This document shows, in pieces, positions 6,842 to 54,780 of a stretch of 64,000 bases of DNA. Numbering within the stretch: position 1 is the stretch's first letter; each line of letters starts with the position of its first letter. Source of the DNA: Haematococcus lacustris (lineage: Eukaryota > Chlorophyta > Chlorophyceae > Chlamydomonadales > Haematococcaceae); the NCBI GenBank assembly GCA_030144725.1, contig JASKMD010000003.1, positions 18,627,859 to 18,691,858 of the forward strand, written 5' to 3'. A program made the translations under genes and the position numbers. Below the pieces are notes generated by a model, which worked only from the letters and a program-made list of their open reading frames with translations, had not been told where the DNA came from and ran no database searches.

Positions 6842-7245
6842 AACAAAATTCGTTCAACAAGGAACAACATGTTTGACTGTGGGTAATCTCACTCCGCTAC
6901 AATCAAATTGAAGCATCCTCGGTCGCACCCCTGATGACTGCCAGCCCCACACCGATGGCACATTCCCCCTAAACCAATGGGCACCTCATCAAAACTAACA
7001 GCACATGCTTTGGAGCGCTGCTGGTACTCCTTGCCAATTGGGAGCGGAGCCTCTAGGTCCTTCCAGCTGCACAGCTCCAGGGGGCGCTGCATGCTCTCCC
7101 CAATGCGCTGGAAGTTGAGGCAAGGGTAAGTGTCCCGATCCAGCCACCTGCCCCATGGGGGGCCCTGGGGTCGTGGGATTGGGCCAGGTGCAGCAAGTCG
7201 CTGGTCCTGGGCAGGGGGGGCCTGTACTGAGAGAGGAGGTGGCTC
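6842..7245 (-). pseudogene. 5'-truncated Fanzor (TnpB-like) copy B with conserved 3' end
   Basis: Reading the minus strand from 7245 downward gives a Pro-rich linker, then WLDRDTYPCLNFQRIGE and the tail LELCSWKDLEAPLPIGKEYQQ. This matches the RuvC-III region of the intact gene at 28989-32179 (there DRDTNACLNFQRIGE). The conserved NA after DRDT is YP here, and the C-terminal tail carries a deletion. About 165 bp of non-coding sequence (7010-6845) then matches the region downstream of the intact gene, ending in a shared TTGTTCCTTGTTGAA block. Everything 5' of the linker is missing. The copy starts immediately after the stop codon of the neighbouring minus-strand gene, so it forms that gene's 3' UTR. 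Confidence 0.8.
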
Positions 7246-27470: not shown

Positions 27471-28400
27471 GCGTGGCAGCCCCACCGGGCATGGGGTGTT
27501 GCCCTAGGGCTCTGCTTTGTTGCCATGGGCGTGTAGCTAATGGACAAGAGACCAGGCCTAGCTATGGAGTGTACAGATCTTGCCCTGCCATGGGGTGCTA
27601 GTATGGGGCTTTGTTGTGGCCATAAGGCAAGACTTGCAGTTGCTCGGGAAGGGTGTTCTGCTACCACATCTGCGATGGGTGCTTGCAGTCCTACTAGATG
27701 TTTGCCTTTAGATACTTGTTGCTTATCTACTGTACCCAGCCAGTGGGGGATGCACGTTGTGGCATGCACCTACGGCATGGATTGATGCTAAAGCAAAAGC
27801 TGTTAACAAACTCTAGTGCCAGGGGCCTTTGCTATGGAGTGTACAGGCCTGCAGGTGCGAGTGGGGCCAGATGGGAGGACACGAGGTGCAAGGGAGTGCA
27901 GCGGGTCATGGCACCGTGGACCGAAGCACATGTCTCGGTGGTGATGTCCCAACACGAACCACACAACGACACAACGAAGGCTTCGATTCTACGCATATGC
28001 TCTGGCTACAACGAACAAAGCTCATAAGCAGGGGAACGAGCAGAAATGGCTCAAGTATGAAGAGTCCCGCGGTCAGTTTGACTATCAGGCCAGATAGTCT
28101 TCTGTAACAAGAAGTGAAGGGTGCACATAGTGTCTTGATGAACCGCTAGAGCATACAACCACTCCGTCTCTCGCTTGACAGCGCGAACGACACAAATGAC
28201 GAGTGAAAGCTAATAGATGTTAAGAAGTATGCGGCTGGTTTAGACGCAACATCAGCAGTGGTGTGGGTGCGTTAAAGAAGCATTTCAGCTTCTTAGGTTT
28301 TAAACTCGCGATACCGGCCATCGCAACACAAAGCGCGACTGCACACATACGCGACTGCACACATACAACCCGTGAGCAGGCCTATGACCACATACCTCGA
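27471..28400. other. intergenic DNA
   Basis: No gene recognised. A short phrase (CTATGGAGTGTACAG) occurs twice, near 27562 and 27832. A TGTAA lies near 28103. Confidence 0.4.
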
Positions 28401-28790
28401 CAACAATAGTAGGAGCACTCGCGGGTTGGGGTCAAGCTGCCACAGCCCTTGCTTGCCTGCCTGGAGGGTCTGTATAGGGATGACCCCCCCAGTGACTCTG
28501 GACCAAGGTGTCAAGCAAGGCTGCCCCATCAGCCCACTCCTGTTTGCTCTCTATGTTCACGACATCAGTAAGGAGTTCCTGGGTCCTGTTGATGCTGTGA
28601 GGGTGCAAGGCACACCCTGTCACCACTTCATGTATGCTGATGACCTTACCCTCATGAGCACCTCGCCCCACGGGCTGCAGCGGCTGGTCTGCCAGCTGTA
28701 AGGCTTTGCAGACAGGAAACACCTTACACTCAATGTGTGCAAGTCAAAGGTAATGGTCTTCAATGGCAACTCACAAACTGCAGCTCCTAG
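28400..28790 (+). pseudogene. LINE reverse transcriptase, 5' part of the interrupted copy
   Basis: The plus strand gives LDQGVKQGCPISPLLFALYV, then HFMYADDLTLMS, then NVCKSKVMVFNGNSQTAAPS. These are the QGxxxSPxLF and catalytic YADD blocks of a non-LTR retrotransposon RT. Upstream, LPACLEGLYRDD-type sequence is in another frame, so there is a frameshift in a C run near 28485, and an in-frame stop follows YADD. The frame is interrupted at 28790 by the Fanzor-bearing element and resumes at 32417. Confidence 0.85.
28778..28790. repeat. 13-bp direct repeat, left copy (target site duplication)
   Basis: CTGCAGCTCCTAG here and again at 32404-32416. Deleting one copy with everything between restores the LINE frame as ...SQTAAPS|IVCKHAIS... 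without an indel. Confidence 0.85.
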
Positions 28791-28875
28791 TGTCTTCTCG
28801 CATCCGCCTGAGTGTCTTCTCGCATCCGCCTGAGTGTCTTCTCGCATCCGCCTGAGTGTCTTCTCGCATCCGCCT
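28791..28875. repeat. 22-bp terminal tandem repeat, about 3.9 units
   Basis: Units begin at 28791, 28813, 28835 and 28857 with TGTCTTCTCGCATCCGCCT. The last diverges into CACATCC. The array begins at the first base of the inserted element. Confidence 0.9.
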
Positions 28876-28988
28876 CACATCCTTCTCACATTCTCACATT
28901 CTCACCGCCGCACTCCGGTTAGATGGCGACCTGATGCACTCCCCAGCACTGCCTCTCCGCTTGTTTAATGTAATGCAAAATACCTGAT

Positions 28989-31078
28989 ATGCCCCCGAAG
29001 GGGCAGCGCAAGCGCCCCGTCTTCCCCGCACAGAGTGCAGCCGGTAAGCCGCTACGCTGGATTAAAGGCTGTATCGCACGAAGCTAACTGATGACGAGTG
29101 TGTGTACGACGCGACAATGCGACTCCGTGCATCAAGTCCTGCCGTGCGTGTGTTGTGCTTTCCCGTGTCTGCAGGCGCCAGTGGCAGTGGGCAGCAAGAC
29201 CAGGGGCAGGGGCAGGCTGTGAGGTCATTGCAGAGAGGCGCCAGGTCATCAAGGCAGCATTTCGTGGCCTTGTTGTGGCAGCGCGGCCTGATCTCAGCCC
29301 AGCTCAAGTCGATGCAGTGGTGGCAGAGGTCAACAAGCGAATGACCATGGGCAGCAAGCAGTGCTGCCTAGCAGCAATCCTAGGTCTCGCCGTGCTGCTG
29401 TCATCCTTCCTAGGCCAGCCCACTCCAGGCTTCCCAGCAGCTAGTCCTGCCCCAGGCCCCCCTCCCCCACCCGACCCAGCCTGCCCTCCCTACTCTCACC
29501 CCTGCCTTCCCCCACGCACCTCCCCCCGCTCTGCAGCCGCCCCAGCCCAGCTGCCTCCCCCAGTGCAGCTGAATATCCTGGACCCACAGCTGTTGGTACA
29601 GATCCGTGATGCCATGGAGCTGATCACCAAGGCCAGTGTGCAGGAGCACCTCATGCGTGGCCCCCACCACCGTGGCATCCGGCTGCTGCCCGGCGAGGTG
29701 GCTGTGTTTGAGCAGCCCAGCAGTGCCTGGACAGTTGCCATGCTCAATCAGCTGGACGAGGAGCACGTGCGGGGGGACAACAATTCCCTAAACGCCAACG
29801 CAACGAATATCATCACCAGCATCCAGGATTTCTACCGGCACCCGGGGCGCTTCATCCGTTGGTGGTGCAAGGCGGTTGGGGTGGTGGAGGAGGGGTTCAG
29901 TAGGGCAATGAAGAAGCACTTCCCCCAGCTGGTGCTAGGGCGCCTAGACTACAGCCTGCCTGACAGGCAGCACAAGTGGCGCTTGCCACCCAACAGTGTG
30001 CTGCGGCAGCCTAGGTGGCGGGAAGAGGTAGTCAAGCACAGGAGGCTGCTGGGGCTGGCAGCCGAGTGGGAGGCGGGAGTGGACTCCATAGGGAAAAGGG
30101 GGGCAGGCAGGCTGCCCATTGAGAAGAGAGTTCGCTATGTGTTGTTCGTCAACCGCAGCCTAGAGGGCTGGCAGGCAGCCCATGACACCTGCCCGCGCCC
30201 CTTCACCATGCTCCCCATGGTAGGGGTGCGTGCCCGCCACTTCGTCATTGATGACAGGGTGCTGCATGGGCTGCTGACGGACCTAGGCATGACCAACCTG
30301 ACACAGCAACAGATTGACGCGGACAGCCTGCCCCATTGGCAGAACTTCATCCAGTACAGCCAGCTGCAGAACAGCGGGTGGGACTTTGCCCGTAGAGTAG
30401 AGACGGATGGAGTCAGCATCAGTGTTCACTTTGTGCGCAGCCAGGCAGTCCTTGAGCCAGTGGAGCTGCCCTCCATAGGGCGTAAGCTCACAGCCACTAG
30501 TGACTTCAGCCCAGCCACCCACATTGCTGTTGGGGTGGACCCAGGTGTCACCCAGGCCATCAAGGCTGCGCATGCAGAGCGTGATCCAGCTACAGGCCAA
30601 GTGCTCAGGAAGTGGGAGTGGGAGCTGAGCAAGGGGCAGCTGAAGCATGACAGCGGGCTTACTAAAGCCAAGCAGGACACAGCCCGCTGGTCAGCTGCCA
30701 TCCAGCCACAGCTGATGCAGCTGGCAGCTGCCCCCCCAGCTGGCACCACCCTGGACAGCCTCCAGGCCCACGTCCTGGCCCTCAAAGCCACCTGGGACGC
30801 ACTGTGGGAGGAGTATCTCAAGCCACGCTGGCGCCGTCAGCGGTTGGCGCTGCACCATGCCCAGGAGCGCATCATTGAGGCCTTCTGCAAGAAGGTATGA
30901 CCCTGACCCTGACCCTGACCCTGACCCTGACCCTGACCCTGACCCTGACCCTGACCCTGACCCTGACCCTGACCCTGACCCTGACCCTGACCCTGACCCT
31001 GACCCTGACCCTGACCCTGACCCTGACCCTGACCCTGACCCTGACCCTGACCCTGACCCTGACCCTGACCCTGACCCT

Positions 31079-31113
<35 letters not shown>

Positions 31114-32179
31114 TGACCCTGACCCTGACCCTGACCCTGACCCTGACCCTGACCCTGACCCTGACCCTGACCCTGACCCTGACCCTGACCCTGACCCTGA
31201 CCCTGACCCTGACCCTGACCCTGACCCTGACCCTGACCCTGACCCTGACCCTGACCCTGACCCTGACCCTGACCCTGACCCTGACTCGGCCCCTGCCCCA
31301 GGCCCTGACCCTGACCCTGACCCTGACCCTGACCCTGACCCTGACTCGGCCCCTGCCCCAGGCCCTGACCCTGACCCTGACCCTGACCCTGACCCTGACC
31401 TGCAGGTGGTGAATGGGATGAAGTGGGTGTCCCGCCACCACTATGGCGAGGAGAGGGGAGTGGCGGTGTTCCTGGGAGCGGGCAACTTCAGCCAGGGTGG
31501 GTGGAAGGCGGGGGCGGTGCGGGCGAGGTTTCGCAAGGTGGTGGAGCAGCCCAGCAGGCCCAGCACAGATCCCAGGCCTGACAGGCTGGTGATCGTGGAT
31601 GAGTTCCGCACCAGCCGTGTCAGCTCGTCAGTGCATGCCTGCCAGCCTTGTGAGCTGCACCTGCCGCCTGACCAGCCTAGGCCTGCAGACTGGGTACCCC
31701 CAGCAGGCCAGGTCAACCCGCGGCTGTCGCGCCCAGCCTGGAGCCAGCGGCATGCTAAGTGTGTGCGGGGCCTGAAGTGGTCCCATGAGGTGCCGCCCAG
31801 CCCCCCAGCCCCTGCCCCTGCCCAGGACCCCCCAGCCCCTGCCCCTGCCCAGGACCCCCCAGCCCCTCCCCCTGCCCTGGCCCAGCCCGCGGCCCAGCCT
31901 CCACCCGGCCCAGCACCACGACCCCAGGCCCCCCCAGGGGGCAGGTGGCTGGATCGGGACACCAACGCCTGTCTCAACTTCCAGCGCATTGGGGAGAGCA
32001 AGCAGCGCCCCCTAGAGCTGTGCCAACGGGATGACCTGGAGGCCCTGCCCCCCGTTGGCAAGGAGTACCAGCAGGGCTACAAGCGGGTCAATGACCGGCT
32101 GCCCAAGGGCAGGCAGAGGCTGCACCGGGCTGCAGAGTACCGGCGGGGCATTGATGGTCGGGCCCGCAACAATGCGTAG
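28989..32179 (+). CDS. Fanzor-like (eukaryotic TnpB) RNA-guided nuclease, apparently intact
   Basis: Proposed exons are 28989-29043, 29195-30894 and 31406-32179, about 842 aa. The second acceptor could instead be at 29215, still in phase. The N-terminus MPPKGQRKRP is basic like a nuclear localisation signal. RuvC-I is VGVDPGVTQAIKAAHAER with D467. The segment VAVFLGAGNFSQGGW, then VIVDEFRTSRVSS (E651), matches the VDEFRTS block typical of Fanzors. E600/E601 (GEERG) is an alternative for the RuvC-II glutamate. RuvC-III is WLDRDTNACLNFQRIGE with D768/D770. In TnpB the VDEFRTS block is followed by CxxC-CxxC; here only a CQPC pair and a single KCVRGLKW cysteine remain, so the zinc ribbon is altered. 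A Pro/Ala-rich linker (residues about 705-760) separates the ribbon from RuvC-III. The last intron is a CCCTGA repeat. Known TnpB/Fanzor proteins cut DNA guided by an RNA from the element's 3' end. Activity here is inferred. Confidence 0.82.
30898..31400. repeat. CCCTGA hexanucleotide array forming the Fanzor intron
   Basis: About 500 bp of ACCCTG/CCCTGA repeat between donor GTATGA (30895) and acceptor TGCAG (31405). It contains a block of CCCCGA variants (31081-31110) and two CGGCCCCTGCCCCAGG interruptions. Without splicing, the nuclease frame stops at 30898-30900. Confidence 0.95.
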
Positions 32180-32403
32180 GCCCTAGTAGTTTGCACAGGC
32201 TGTTAGCCTATCAAGCATTAAGCTGTTAGTTTTGATGAGGTGCCCAGTGGTCAAGGGGGATTAGCCCCAGGAAAGAGTGCCACCGGAGTGGGGTTTGCAG
32301 TCATCAAGGGTGCGACCGAGGATGCTACAACTTGTTTGTAGTAGCTGAGTGAGATTACCCACAGTCCAACATGTTGTTCCTTGTTGAATAAGTTTTGTTG
32401 GCC
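32180..32403 (+). ncRNA. candidate guide (omega) RNA region 3' of the Fanzor gene
   Basis: Non-coding sequence between the stop codon and the element end. From about 32207 to 32398 it aligns with 7010-6845 of truncated copy B. Shared blocks include GCTGTTAGTTTTGATGAGG, GGTGCGACCGAGGATGCT, GAGTGAGATTACCCACAGTC and TTGTTCCTTGTTGAA. Conservation continues where the flanking protein tail has been deleted. In TnpB and Fanzor systems the guide RNA scaffold lies here, with the guide beyond the element end. Transcription is not shown. Confidence 0.5.
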
Positions 32404-33220
32404 CTGCAGCTCCTAGCATTGTGTGCAAGCATGCGATCTCGCTTGTGGTGAGAGAGTTCAAGTACTTAGGCATGCACTTCAATCCCAGCGCCACCCCTGC
32501 TTTTGCTGCCACCTATATGAGGGCTGGCATGTTCCTCGCCATGCACCAGGCGTGCAAGCGTGCCAGAGAGTATGGGGTCCTGCATGATCCATATGCGCTG
32601 TGTCACCTCATTAGAGCGTTCGTGCTCCCCTTGGGGCTGTATGGCAGCCAGGTATGGGGCACTGCCTTCCTTAGGCATGGTGTGCAGCTCTCCAACCCAG
32701 TGCAAACACGCATGCTCAGCTTTCTCAGGTGTGCTGCCAGGGTACGTAGCTCAGTGTCAGGCCTGATGGTGCTGCATGGCGGATGAGTTGATGGCGGATG
32801 GCGGATGAGTTGACCTTGAGCCCGGACATGGTCCTAGGCACCAAGGCTTTGGAAGTCAAGTGGCTCGAGAGGTGGGGGAGGCGTTGGGTTGGGTTTGAGG
32901 GAGACCCTAGGCTGCCTGAGACGTTGCATCGGGAGAGATGCTCCTATGCTGCATGGTTCAAGCATGGGGACGGCATTGGCATCAATCACATGGCACCACA
33001 CCTGCTACACAAAGAGCTCTCTACAGAGGTCCGCACGAGCTTGACTAGGTTCAGGTTAGGCAACAGCGGTTTGGGGGTGGAGAAGGCTCGCTTTGAGGGA
33101 GTTACTTTCATTGATCGCACATGCACAAGATGCACTGAGGGGGTAGTGGATGACGCCATGCATTTTATCTTTGAGTGCACTGCCACGAGTTCCGTCAGCC
33201 ATGTCATTTCAGAACAATAA
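32404..33220 (+). pseudogene. LINE reverse transcriptase, 3' part of the interrupted copy
   Basis: The frame resumes as SIVCKHAISLVVREFKYLGM, followed by the RT connection region (LIRAFVLPLGLYGSQVWG). After a frameshift near 32784, where GGCGGATG units are duplicated, the C-terminal region ends with CTRCTEGVVDDAMHFIFEC, the CxxC...H...C zinc finger of plant/algal-type LINEs. The stop is at about 33218. It is the downstream half of the copy starting at 28400. Confidence 0.85.
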
Positions 33221-33708
33221 TGATGACTTGCATGACTTCATTTTGTGACAGAAAGTCCCGAACCCCTAGAGGGGGACGGTGGTCAAGCCACGTTGTAAGC
33301 CATCATCAACACCATCATCCTAACCTGCATTGGCTTGATCATCCCATCATCAGCGTTTCCCTGCACGGCCACGAGTCTTCCCAAAGTAACCCTCGACCTA
33401 TAAGAATGATTTAGACCAAGAATCACAAGTATAAGCCATGCTGCTAAGCTTGTGCGCACCTTTGCCTGTGCAGTGTTTTTGAGATGTTTTTGCAGGCTGC
33501 TTGCCCTTTAGGGGCATCACATCAAAGAAACAATCTTAGCGATGCACAGCCAATAGAGCACAATAGCCATCCAGAGTGACCGGGGATGTGACAATGCAAG
33601 CCATTCAGCTCAATCACGGGCGATGGCCATGTAATGGCACTGCATTATTGACGTCACGGTAACAGACCAAACGGTGAAAGACCAGCCACCATGTCATCAC
33701 TGGCATCG
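33221..33708. other. LINE 3' region and intergenic DNA
   Basis: No coding sequence recognised. A TGTAA lies near 33294 and could be the LINE poly(A) signal. Confidence 0.35.
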
Positions 33709-36700: not shown

Positions 36701-39053
36701 AGTTCCCATGGATAAATATGTTATAGTTCAGGAAGGACCACCCACAGGCCAGCACTCAGCAGGAGATGTCAACGCTGGCATTGGCACGCGGGGTGGGTGG
36801 GGGGCCAAGGCCGTGCTGCAGGCCTGCCGCAAGGTGGTGGAAAGGCCCACCAGCAGCAAGCCAACAGACAGGGTGCCAGGGAAGGTGGTGACAGTAGATG
36901 GATTCCCACCAGCAGGGTCAGCTCAGCTATGACTAGCCCCTAGCCCTGTGAGAAGGAGCTCGACCGCAGCGAGCCCCCCAAGCCTGGAGGTTCGAAACCC
37001 CAGCCAGGTCAGGTGCAGGGGCGCTCAATGCGGTCAGCCTGGAGCAAACGGTTTGAGGCACCTGTGCGGGGGCTCGTGTGGTGCCCCAAGCTGGACCAGG
37101 CCACCCCTGGTGACATTGGCAAATGGGTGGATAGGGACTGCAACGCAGCTCTCAACCTCCAGCGGGCTGGGGAGGCCACATGGCGCCCACTGGAGATGTG
37201 CAGGTGGCAAGACCAAGCAGCGGCTTCTACCAAGGGCAAGGAGCACCCAACGTTGGGCTGCAAGCAGCTGCGAGATTGAGCGCCCAAAGCCCAGCAGCCT
37301 GGAGCACAATATCATGTGTGCACTAGGTAATGCTTAAGCTGTTGCTTACATTAGGTATAAGATATTGGCAAATTATAGACAACGTAGCCCCATAGTTGTA
37401 TGGGGCAATATGCGCTGAGCAGGAGATGTGTTGCATGAGGTATAGTGTTGTTGCCGCACCTGTATTGTTAGCGTTGAGCATGTGCAGTTCGCCTGTCAGG
37501 GGCGGTGGTGCTGCAGCCGGCTCCCATGGGGCAGGCACCAATGCTGGGATTGCTGCTGCAGCTGTACAGTTTAGGTGGGCCGTGCCTAAGGCATTGGGCA
37601 TGTGGGAAGCAACTGCCCTGTCAGCTGGAGCTTCTGCCACTACTGCCGCTTCACTGGCTTCTGATAGGGAGGACAGCTCACTGGATGAGGTGGCGTGCGC
37701 TCCTGCAGCAAGACAAGCTTGCAAGACATGGAGTTGGGCCTTCCAGCTGGGGCTGCAGAGCTCTCAGCCCTGGCAGTGTGTCGCACACAAGCACATCTGA
37801 AGCAACATGTGTGAACATGGGAAGTGAGGCATGGGACTGCCAAGCACACTCTTGCAGGGTGTTCACTAGCCGTACCATGCCGACCCATTGCGATGGATAG
37901 CTGTGCACTGCGACAGGAACGCCAGATGCAGGAGCCAGCTTACTTTGGTGCAGGGTTGAGGCAATTGTCTGTCACCAGGCCTGCCATGTGTCACACCCAA
38001 AGTCCAAAGCAGCTGAGCTATGGTAGCAAGCTCAGTCAGCAAGACTTGATAGAGATGATGTCCCGTCCCCAAGGAACCCCCAGCCACAAGTGCCACATGC
38101 CATGCTATCCAGCAGTAAGCATCACAACAGAAACACACAGCAGTCAAGGATGAATTGCAAAAGTGCTGGGCATCACCTTGCTTGACTTCTGCCGGCAAAA
38201 CTTGGCCGTGGCACGCTTGCAGCTCCGCAGCCGCATGGTCACTGGCCGTTGACACCGCTGCGTCATGAAGGCTGGTTGCAGTGCTGCGATACACACACTC
38301 TGATGGCTCCGACAATGGCTGCACAGGCACTGCTAGGTAGTCAGCTTGGTGGTGGGAAGCCCTCTGGTGCAGCTCCGTGAGCATCTGTGCCTGCATCCGG
38401 CTGAGCTCCTGGAGCTGAGCACGGCGCCGGTTGCCAGCTGGGGCAGGCAGCACCGACCCGATCTGCTGAGCGTTCGCTTCTAGATGCTGCAGCTGGGTCT
38501 GAACAGTGTCTGCTGGCTGTGTGGAGCTTGTCGGCTTGCTGATGGGGCCTGCCTGGGGTGGGGCACCAGACCCAAGCCCCCCAGGAGCTGAATGACTCTG
38601 CCCCTCAGGACTTGGACTTCTACGCCCCACAGGGCTGCTGCGGCCAGGCTTTGCCCCGTCCTCGCTCTTGGTGCGGCGGTGAATGGAGCAGTTCATGAAC
38701 ACGCGCTCAATCTCTGTCAGTTCAGCCTCCAGGGCAGAGAAGTGGCAACCCCCAGGTAAGAGGCAGGCCGGCCTTCCAGCAGTGTCCTCCACAATCGACA
38801 CACTTTGGCTCAGTGCTGTTGCTGTGGAGTGCGTGGCTGTTAAGTTGGTTGCGAGCTTGTGCGGGGTTTTACTGGTAGCCTGCTCATGCTGCTCCAATGC
38901 ACCCATGAGGGCAGAGTCCGATTTCAGAGGTGTAGGTGGGGACGACACTACACTCAGTGCCCTGCTCCGGCCTAAGGCTTGTTCTGCGGCAGGCTCGCTT
39001 AAACTCTCACCATCCTTGTGGTGGCATCCCTCCAATGCACCTGTCGAATGCAC
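33709..39053 (-). CDS. large Ala/Pro/Ser-rich protein of unknown function
   Basis: Four minus-strand exons join in phase: 39053-38177, 37702-37460, 36318-34688 and 34413-33709 (stop TGA), about 1151 aa. All introns are GT-AG. The first exon may begin further upstream; the Met at 39053 is the first available, and an acceptor-like CGACAG lies just inside it. The protein is low-complexity and probably disordered. It has Ser-Pro clusters (SSPVGRRSPSPEG, TSPRRPLSSHPSP), a short acidic/hydrophobic stretch EAELTEIERVFMNC, and a Gln/Leu-rich helical region near the exon C/D junction (LQLLLHQLQGKQAQQ...RALHALVAQQK). No catalytic domain is recognised. The intron 37459-36319 holds a Fanzor fragment in the opposite orientation. 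Part of exon 1, exon 2 and that fragment are duplicated at 54217-55907. Confidence 0.6.
36735..37330 (+). pseudogene. Fanzor (TnpB-like) copy D1, C-terminal fragment
   Basis: Frames read GTRGGWGAKAVLQACRKVVE, then VVTVDGFPPAGS, then (after a frame change) FEAPVRGLVWCPKLDQ and KWVDRDCNAALNLQRAGEA, ending CKQLRD-stop at 37280. The catalytic-region VDEFRTS has become VDGFPPA. Downstream of the stop, AGCCCAGCAGCCTG and CATGTGTGCAC are shared with copies C and D2. It lies inside an intron of the minus-strand gene at 33709-39053. Confidence 0.85.
36735..38447. repeat. segmental duplication, copy 1 (partner 54217-55907)
   Basis: About 1.7 kb of nearly identical sequence in the same orientation. It starts at CCACCCACA and ends at CAGCTGGGGCAGG. 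It contains a Fanzor fragment plus exon 2 and part of exon 1 of the host gene. Confidence 0.93.
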
Positions 39054-40407: not shown

Positions 40408-41391
40408 TGCACACATGCTACTGTGCTACAGGCTGCTGGGCTTGGGCCTTGGGGGCTCGCTCTCACAGCTTCTTGAAGCCCAGTGCTGGGTACTCCCTGC
40501 CCTGGGCAGGAAGCCTTCCTCGGTGTTGCCACCTGCACAGCTCCAGTGTGCGCCACTTGCTCTCCCCTGCCCGCTGGAGGTTGAGGGCTGCGTTGCAATC
40601 CCTGTCCACCCATTTGCCCAGCTTCCAAGGGGTAGCCTGGGCCAGCCAAGGGCACCACATGAGGCCCCGCACTGGCGCCTCAAACCGCTTGCTCCAGGCT
40701 GACCGCAACAAGCGGTCCTGCACCTGACCTGGCTTGGGCTTCCAGCCTTCAAGCCTGGTGGGCTTGCTGCGGTCCAGCTCCTCCTCACAGGGCTGGGGGC
40801 TGTTCAGGATTGAGCTGACACTGCTGGTGCGGAACTCATCCACTGTCACCACCTTGCCTGGCACCCTGTCTGTCGGCTTGCCGCTGTTGGCCCTCTCCAC
40901 CACCTTGCGGCAGGCCTGCAGCACGGCCTTGGCCCCCCACCCACCCCGCGTGCCAATGGCTGCGTTGCCAAAGAACACCACCAGCTGCTTGCGGGTCCCC
41001 CACTCCTGCTGGGACACGGTGGCTGCCTCCTCCTCCAGCTGCATGGCACACAAGATACACACAAAGCGCATGACATCCTGGGTAGGACTGTGGACATGGG
41101 CACCTAGCAGGTCACATGTGGGGGCGGTCTTCAGCCTGTGGTCCTTCCCCCCTACCCTTGGGCACTCCCACCTTCATGAAGTAGCGCTCCAGGACCGTCT
41201 CCTGCGCGCCACTTGACGAACTGGATCCTCGACTTGGCCGCCTCCTTCAGTCTCTCCTTAAGCGCCCTCCCTTGTGGCGATACGGGGCCTACCCAGCCCA
41301 GGTCGTCAGGCTTGTCCTTGGGCTTTGGCTTAGGCTGCTTGGGATTGGGCTGTTTGGGCCCATCCGCGCCCTTGCGCTTCTTGCCCTTCAT
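40408..41391 (-). pseudogene. Fanzor (TnpB-like) copy C, internally deleted
   Basis: The minus strand from 41391 begins MKGKKRKGADGP with Lys/Pro repeats (NLS-like), then RALKERLKEAAKSRIQFVKW. It then jumps to TRKQLVVFFGNAAIGTRGGW, KVVTVDEFRTSSVSS, FEAPVRGLMWCPWLAQ and KWVDRDCNAALNLQRAGES, ending GFKKL-stop at about 40463. The VDEFRTS and DRDCNAALN motifs are intact, but RuvC-I and the whole middle are missing. The zinc-ribbon cysteines are mostly lost (VSSILNSPQPC). The 3' tail (40462-40408) shares AGCCCAGCAGCCTG and CATGTGTGCAC with D1 and D2. It is flanked by 45-bp direct repeats. Confidence 0.85.
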
Positions 41392-54216: not shown

Positions 54217-54780
54217 CCACCCACAAGTCACCACTCAGCAGGAGATGTCAACGCTGGCATTGGCACGCGGGGTGGGTGGGGTGCCAAGGCCGTGCTGCAG
54301 GCCTGCCGCAACGTGGTGGAGAGGACCACCAGGCAGGGTGCTAGGCAGGGTAGTGACGATAGATGGATTCCGCACCAGCATAGTCAGCTCAGCTATGACC
54401 AGCCCCAAGCCCTGTGAAAAGGAGCTCGACCGCAGCGAGCCCCCCTGGCCTAGAGGCTGCAAGCCCCAGACAGGTCAGGTGCAGGGGCGCTCAATGTGGT
54501 CAGCCTGGAGCCAGCGGTTTGAGGCACCAGTGTGGGGGCTCATGTGGTGCCCCAAGCTAGACCAGGCCACCCCTGGTGACATTGGTAGGGACTGCAATGC
54601 AGCTCTCAACCTCGAGCGGGCTGGGGAGGCCCCATGGCGCCCACTGGAGATGTGCAGGTGGCAAGACCAAGCAGCGGCTCCTACCAAGGGCAAGGAGTAC
54701 CCAACGTTGGGCTGCAAGCAGCTGCGAGACTGAGCGCCCAAAGCCCAGCAGCCTGGAGCACAATATCATGTGTGCACTAG
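54217..54780 (+). pseudogene. Fanzor (TnpB-like) copy D2, C-terminal fragment
   Basis: Duplicate of D1. It reads VVTIDGFRTSIVSS (E of VDEFRTS lost to G, as in D1), FEAPVWGLMWCPKLDQ, then GRDCNAALNLERAGEA after a small deletion that removed KWVD. It stops at 54733. The conserved AGCCCAGCAGCCTG and CATGTGTGCAC tail follows. Confidence 0.85.

Follow-up and report, generated by a model that had tools for sequence, protein, structure and literature searches.

Organization of the locus

The analysed sequence is a stretch of 64,000 nucleotides from the genome of the green alga Haematococcus lacustris (assembly GCA_030144725.1, 308 Mb; contig JASKMD010000003.1, positions 18,627,859 to 18,691,858, forward strand), which is called the window in the following. 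It contains the gene of a Fanzor-type (TnpB/Cas12-like) RuvC protein, and this gene is part of a mobile element nested in a long interspersed nuclear element (LINE). The reverse-transcriptase family RVT_1 (PF00078) matched at 28297-28701 with E 1.8e-10, which places the element inside the reverse-transcriptase frame of the LINE. In a preliminary description of this DNA, positions 28989 to 32179 were regarded as the unit. The gene was indeed found there, but the extent was too small for the element, which as a whole reaches from about 28791 to 32403 and is bordered by 13-bp repeats. The following features were assigned, all on the forward strand:

28377-28790 (+): 5' portion of the host LINE as far as the insertion, including a reverse-transcriptase segment (RVT_1 match; LINE flanks of other loci match)
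28778-28790 (+): left copy of the target-site duplication, 13 bp, CTGCAGCTCCTAG (exact repeat of 32404-32416; uninterrupted LINE site in L026)
28791-32403 (+): Fanzor element, with a left end that is ragged among the copies and a right end that is precise to about 32400 (target-site duplications; right end common to other copies)
28989-29043 (+): putative exon 1, with ATG and donor GCCG/GTAAG (alignment of copies)
29175-30894 (+): exon 2, beginning at the acceptor that the family conserves; frame shifted by a 4-bp deletion between 29221 and 29222 (alignment, selection, spliced translation)
30538-30540 (+): codon of the RuvC-I catalytic aspartate D467 in GVDPG (30532-30546); counterpart on SpuFz is D383 by aligned ends
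30895-31405 (+): intron 2, mostly (CCCTGA)n repeat (GT..AG ends; repeat family D1)
31406-32179 (+): exon 3, with RuvC-II, the lost zinc ribbon, the Pro/Ala linker, RuvC-III and the stop (splice ends; alignment of copies)
31601-31603 (+): codon of the RuvC-II alternative glutamate E651 in VDEFRTS; counterpart on SpuFz is E541 by aligned ends
31622-31633 (+): codons S658-V661, where the first zinc CxxC is expected (motif counts, family comparison)
31781-31942 (+): Pro/Ala-rich linker (family alignment)
31958-31960 (+): codon of the RuvC-III aspartate D770 in RDTN, motif RWLDRDTNACLNFQRIGE (motif in the spliced frame)
32300-32398 (+): conserved 3' block, noncoding, with the right end; candidate scaffold of a guide RNA (low divergence)
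32404-32416 (+): right copy of the target-site duplication and start of the presumed guide sequence, in the LINE (exact repeat of 28778-28790)
32404-33245 (+): host LINE, 3' portion (matched by the LINE flanks of other loci)

Residue numbers (D467, E651, S658, V661, D770) are those of the 842-residue protein of the preliminary description. L numbers (L009, L010 and so on) denote other genomic loci or copies, and P numbers H. lacustris proteins. In L026, a LINE carries a single uninterrupted copy of the insertion site (CTGCAGCACCTAG). The target duplications and the many copies in the genome show that the gene is carried by a mobile element.

Identity of the encoded protein

The order of the motifs GVDPG, VDEFRTS and RWLDRDTNACLNFQRIGE, which had been described before, was confirmed when the exons were joined over the (CCCTGA)n intron with its GT..AG ends. 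Three subfamilies are present in this one genome, namely DEFRTS/T with a Pro-rich linker, DEHRTS with a Pro/Ala/Lys-rich linker and P0099 with a short linker, and the motifs are invariant or nearly so between subfamilies of about 40% identity. The ratio of nonsynonymous to synonymous substitutions (dN/dS) of exon 2 (552 codons in the window register; pairs from ten of 21 copies) was 0.18-0.31 in 41 of 45 pairs and 0.49-0.68 in the four closest pairs, and in the same register 18 of the 20 other copies had no stop in this exon. For the well-aligned parts of exon 3, the mean dN divided by the mean dS was 0.34 (91 pairs, 14 copies). The conservation between such distant subfamilies, together with the low ratios of exon 2, shows that the motifs are not due to chance. 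Exon 2 is under purifying selection between lineages, and the protein was kept during the spread of the family.

A RuvC fold with a helical insertion was found, and the six best matches of the AlphaFold model in the PDB, as obtained with Foldseek, were Fanzors (GtFz, E 2.9e-7). SpuFz1 and GtFz1, which are solved Fanzor1 structures, were the best fold matches over the region from RuvC-I to RuvC-II, and the catalytic aspartate and the alternative glutamate correspond by aligned ends. Two traits distinguish Fanzors from the majority of TnpBs, namely DPG and a glutamate that precedes the zinc finger by six residues (PMC10711439). Both features were detected: 82 of 84 [GA][VI]DxG matches in 218 family proteins read DPG, and E651 is followed by six residues and then by S658 at the position of the first zinc-finger cysteine. 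Among the candidate glutamates proposed earlier, E651 is the best supported. The profile search suggested for the 842-residue protein had a divided outcome, since the window protein had no Pfam match, whereas seven of eight sister proteins scanned passed the cut-off of PF07282 with their whole-protein score.

The fold search, DPG with the alternative glutamate and the sister proteins passing PF07282 bear out the earlier claim that an algal genome holds a Fanzor homologue. Its fold and the layout of its active site make the protein a Fanzor, but one which has lost its ribbon. It is most likely the Fanzor1-derived, predicted RNA-guided nuclease of a transposon like CRe-1, CRe-2 and CRe-3 of Chlamydomonas, and the sequence makes a function as RNA-guided DNA nuclease plausible.

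Several results weigh against this assignment. The AlphaFold model is poor (mean predicted local distance difference test, pLDDT, 42.3; predicted template modelling score, pTM, 0.30), and only the region of about residues 463-660 is better. The Foldseek superpositions had template modelling scores (TM-scores) of 0.14-0.22 and root mean square deviations of 26-31, and Cas12j equalled SpuFz by Z in the fold comparison. The RuvC-III motif RDxN is present; D770, which had also been proposed as a catalytic residue, lies in the unmodelled part of the structure. In the sister proteins, no single stretch passes PF07282 alone. Furthermore, the window protein gave no usable match to Pfam or to PDB sequences, and the family profile gave no Pfam match and, against PDB sequences, a best E of 0.056, to low-complexity parts. 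The C4 zinc finger between RuvC-II and RuvC-III, which is counted among the strictly conserved features of Fanzors (PMC3627910), is missing.

In NCBIfam, no TnpB family was among the 25 matches listed for 36 family members; these were otherwise unrelated or fused-gene matches. Protein searches returned H. lacustris only, among the best 120 of 508 matches (8000 candidates scored) and among the best 120 of 489. In the collection of papers searched by full text, no account of Fanzors in Haematococcus was found; an earlier survey may list the family. A comparable case is the Fanzor-encoding repeat of Auxenochlorella (PMC12636532), which is likewise abundant in a green alga, is called uncharacterised there and was compared by its description only; the excerpts consulted from that paper mention no Fanzors of Haematococcus.

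The missing zinc ribbon and the variable Pro/Ala linker

The preliminary description had noted a near-loss of the CxxC/CxxC zinc ribbon. The loss itself was recognized correctly, but it concerns the whole family. At the positions of the first CxxC, S combined with V, L, M or Y was found in 203 of 217 motif occurrences (218 proteins), and both cysteines in none of the 217. The CxxC that survives in the window (ACQPC) is an accidental private change, as all 16 other copies reaching this point read ARQPC (L022 stops short). According to PMC10711439, "many" TnpBs and Fanzors contain a zinc finger, which is hence not obligatory. As the C4 zinc finger is absent and yet not obligatory by this account, the family was filed as a ribbon-less variant and not as a typical member. 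SpuFz1, in contrast, keeps a CCCC zinc finger (PMC10432273) and shares 14-16% identical residues in the fold alignment. Nuclease activity was demonstrated for SpuFz1 and GtFz1, whereas the H. lacustris family is known here from sequence and model.

Cysteines are well conserved in QPCE and in RGLxWC, and LELC also occurs at the C-terminus of the family, outside the canonical ribbon positions. It is possible that these conserved cysteines could form a rebuilt metal site.

The Pro/Ala linker mentioned in the preliminary description is real; it is a family trait of variable length and is short in subfamily P0099. Across seven open copies, the spacing between motif II and motif III was 106-169 residues.

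Integrity of the gene copies

Four bases between 29221 and 29222 are present in all 20 other aligned copies and absent from the window. If the junctions of the family are used (acceptor 29175), the translation of the window copy stops at residue 74. The 842-residue protein requires an acceptor at 29195, which the family does not use, and the copy can therefore not be regarded as intact, contrary to its first description; some relatives are uninterrupted. Splice junctions, which were located by pattern, were found in 16 of 21 copies tried. Seven of these 16 (window counted) are open to the common C-terminus, namely L009, L011, L017, L018, L020, L024 and L025, of which L025 is without the DPG string and L018 was joined over a long intron. 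In the intact relatives the mRNA would be spliced twice.

Several copies break within the (CCCTGA)n intron and leave 5' halves without 3' halves. The 5' halves are more alike than the 3' halves, as if the (CCCTGA)n array were a recombination point.

Insertion pattern in the genome

A search of the genome with the right end gave 2527 first-look candidates, 40 of which were scored (97-100% identity). In 29 of 30 fetched loci, CTG stands one or two bases beyond the right end (..TTTTGTTGG), the exception being L046. L049/L056, L050/L062 and L051/L064 share flanks, which reduces the 30 right ends to about 27 independent ones. The first sample contained further exceptions to CTG, namely L015 with TTG, L029 and a lone right end of L017. 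Left ends are ragged between copies.

In 11 of 29 loci (one duplicate), an upstream repeat of the right flank begins exactly at CTG, and in each case none of 100 shuffles gave a match as good. The exact lengths of the ten distinct duplications were 16, 16, 15, 15, 15, 14, 14, 12, 11 and 9 bp, in comparison to 13 bp in the window. In 14 duplication contexts (13 distinct sites), a purine was found at -3 and no longer consensus upstream. The element of L069 sits next to the DEHRTS motif of a different Fanzor gene, which is seen in its right flank.

The recurrent LINE site

The same position of the LINE was found at four of the 30 right ends (window, L045, L053 and L066), with L045 and L053 being re-finds of L014 and L020. 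In both samples together, ten right ends adjoin the LINE at this site, and that of L009 lies about 28 nt further on. If CTG sufficed as target, the chance of 3 of 29 insertions at one LINE position would be about 3e-10 to 3e-7, and that of 2 of 25 about 6e-7 to 6e-5, presuming 1000-10000 copies of the LINE site. As recurrence is so improbable by CTG alone, something directs the elements there, be it guide RNA, homology or both.

The copies at this site do not look like one insertion, because their spacer bases (CC, AA, C) and left junctions vary, the 5' end of L010 is a different one, and in the window (T) as well as in L019 (CCCAG) both copies of the duplication carry the same variant, bar one base in L019. 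The distances of the left LINE and of exon 2 were uncorrelated (Mantel r -0.02, P 0.53, 7 copies, among them L018 with a LINE piece that is in part non-adjacent). L016, L020 and L023 are identical in the 5' noncoding stretch that was compared, and their left LINE flanks differ by 3.7-5.3%.

L009, L014 and L033/L040 have LINE sequence on the right, but not in the approximately 320 nt shown on the left. With their truncated left ends, L009, L014 and L033 resemble composites borne by a LINE, and part of the abundance of the element may be due to LINE retrotransposition. We also considered whether all copies at the LINE site go back to a single insertion that multiplied together with its LINE; this is possible for some of them (L009, L014, L033) and hard to accept for all, in view of the junctions and distances.

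The 3' block as candidate guide RNA

The last 99 nt of the element showed a mean pairwise divergence of 5.2% and were almost gapless, in comparison to 15.1% with gaps in the first 120 nt of the 3' untranslated region (UTR; 22 copies). This comparison, and the folding with z -1.7 given below, used 22 of 27 rows; those dropped were L013 (a duplicate of L012), the second right ends of L012 and L013, a lone right end in L017 and L029, whose end is broken. The guide RNAs of TnpB and Fanzor map to this 3' part of the element. The last 99 nt are therefore a candidate scaffold of such a guide RNA (omega RNA or reRNA).

Arguments against this proposal are that the 3' RNA did not fold significantly better than shuffled sequences (z -1.7; z -1.34), that the block had no Rfam match, and that no target-adjacent motif was established, as only the purine at -3 was found upstream of the sites in the 14 contexts. 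Since the folding is not convincingly better than that of shuffles, the function as scaffold is treated as putative.

Mobilization of the element

We consider it probable that the locus represents a damaged copy of a high-copy H. lacustris transposon family, whose one recognized gene encodes a divergent, zinc-ribbon-less Fanzor1-type RuvC nuclease, and that the right flank serves as guide for the cutting of empty sites. The 3' end of the transcript, i.e. the last approximately 99 nt plus flank, would most likely be the omega RNA or reRNA, and the guide of each copy would be the flank immediately to the right of its insertion. Where copies of this site are still empty, cleavage by the nuclease would help the element to be copied there. 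The initial insertion would be due to a separate, one-ended activity, with a precise right end before CTG, a ragged or truncated left end and a duplication of mostly 11-16 bp. GtFz1 cuts 14-17 nt into the target, and SpuFz1 at 16-17 and 20-21 nt on the two strands (PMC10432273). By analogy, duplications of mostly 11-16 bp from the first bases of the guide could be a trace of a Fanzor cut and of copying that starts at the right end. An insertion by two nicks, as in target-primed reverse transcription or rolling-circle transposition, would fit this geometry as well.

The LINE site might even reflect natural RNA-guided homing in a eukaryote, although we regard this as unlikely. LINE-borne copies would be guided against the empty LINE site and cut about 13-16 nt into it, repair would copy the element from the right end, and part of the protospacer would be left as target duplication, with the LINE family as a multicopy landing pad. 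A bacterial TnpB was reported to act as gene drive in multicopy plasmids (PMC11870625). This IS200/IS605 system follows the same logic, as the guide records the insertion site and empty multicopy targets are attacked; it differs in being bacterial, in a usually different position of the glutamate and in its target, which in H. lacustris would be the LINE family. Homing is disfavoured by 18 of 29 loci in which no duplication was found within 1.5 kb, and by seven fetched pairs of left and right ends, only three of which showed a duplication by eye (13, 15 and 16 bp, one mismatch). Loci without a duplication may have left ends further away, or no duplication at all. In addition, the 3' UTR and the right LINE flank have diverged to a similar degree (medians of 7.9% and 8.3%), and the 5' noncoding part is the only one that diverges less than the LINE (1.7% versus 4.6% on the left).

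Helitron2-type rolling-circle transposition, with the Fanzor only aiding retention, is a possible, though not the favoured, way in which the element moves. It was proposed for CRe-1, CRe-2 and CRe-3 of Chlamydomonas reinhardtii (Bao and Jurka 2013, PMC3627910), whose pattern with TTTT was ascribed to one-ended transposition of this type. Like the H. lacustris family, these are multicopy, non-autonomous elements with a captured Fanzor1 in a green-algal host, and they share 5' truncation, internal deletions, a precise 3' end and variable target duplications. The captured Fanzor1, the 5' truncation, the internal deletions, 3' ends without coding parts and duplications of 7-19 bp in the CRe elements (PMC3627910) all favour this mechanism. 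The target CTG instead of TTTT does not fit, and no T-run, neither TTTT nor another T-rich tetranucleotide, preceded the duplications in the 14 contexts. Judged by the published description, the H. lacustris family differs further from CRe-1, CRe-2 and CRe-3 in the lost zinc ribbon, the Pro/Ala linker and the recurrent LINE site.

Somewhat less probable is that target-primed reverse transcription by the LINE machinery spreads the element, with the Fanzor gene as passenger, which can hold beside the nuclease function. The first nick would occur at CTG and the second 11-16 nt away, incomplete synthesis would cause the 5' truncation, and copies at the LINE site would partly derive from one composite of LINE and element. 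Precise 3' ends, ragged left ends and duplications starting at a nick-like motif agree with this explanation, as do LINE parts left of the element that are themselves truncated at several points, the loci with LINE on the right only within about 320 nt shown (L009, L014, L033/L040) and the similar divergence of 3' UTR and right LINE flank (7.9%, 8.3%), which a shared history predicts. Intron 1, however, is kept in the aligned copies and the repeats of intron 2 in many, and spliced RNA was thus not the template; unspliced RNA could have been. Furthermore, no A-run was present at the right ends in the 30 loci fetched, and the distances of element and left LINE were uncorrelated (Mantel r -0.02, 7 copies).

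For the recurrence at the LINE site, a less probable alternative is that LINE copies underwent ordinary ectopic gene conversion and that no nuclease took part. It would account for the discordant distances, and mosaic elements were indeed observed: in comparison to the window, the 5' halves of L010, L014, L015, L019 and L028 are 92-96% and the 3' halves 86-91% identical. Evidence against it comes from the differing spacer bases, left junctions and 5' subfamily (L010 with its other 5' end) and from the same variant in both copies of a duplication (T in the window, CCCAG in L019).

That the protein is no Fanzor at all, but an unrelated transposase with RNase H fold or a set of chance motifs, is very improbable, as the lack of a direct Pfam or PDB sequence match of the window protein is outweighed by Fanzors ranking first by fold and by the sister proteins passing PF07282.

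Further fragments and genome annotation

Four further fragments of the Fanzor superfamily were detected in the window, at 6843-7218 (-), 36908-37309 (+), 40448-41158 (-) and 54326-54775 (+). Three of them are closest to the short-linker subfamily, and those at 36.9 and 54.3 kb lie in repeats that are 97% identical to each other. Among these other family fragments only one, at 6843-6958, has the same right end.

The annotated proteins P0003, P0026, P0070, P0013 and P0116 fuse Fanzor parts with reverse transcriptase or with host domains (Arf, ribosomal protein S13). The annotation of H. lacustris is therefore contaminated by the Fanzor repeat.

Implications

The conserved active site without a ribbon throughout the family raises the question of what purpose the ribbon serves in TnpB/Cas12-type nucleases, and the family offers natural ribbon-less enzymes for testing this. 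The role of Fanzors for eukaryotic transposons is likewise an open question. With many similar copies, uninterrupted members under selection, the flank recorded at the right ends and a repeated multicopy target, H. lacustris makes homing testable, both from sequence and in a cultivable alga.
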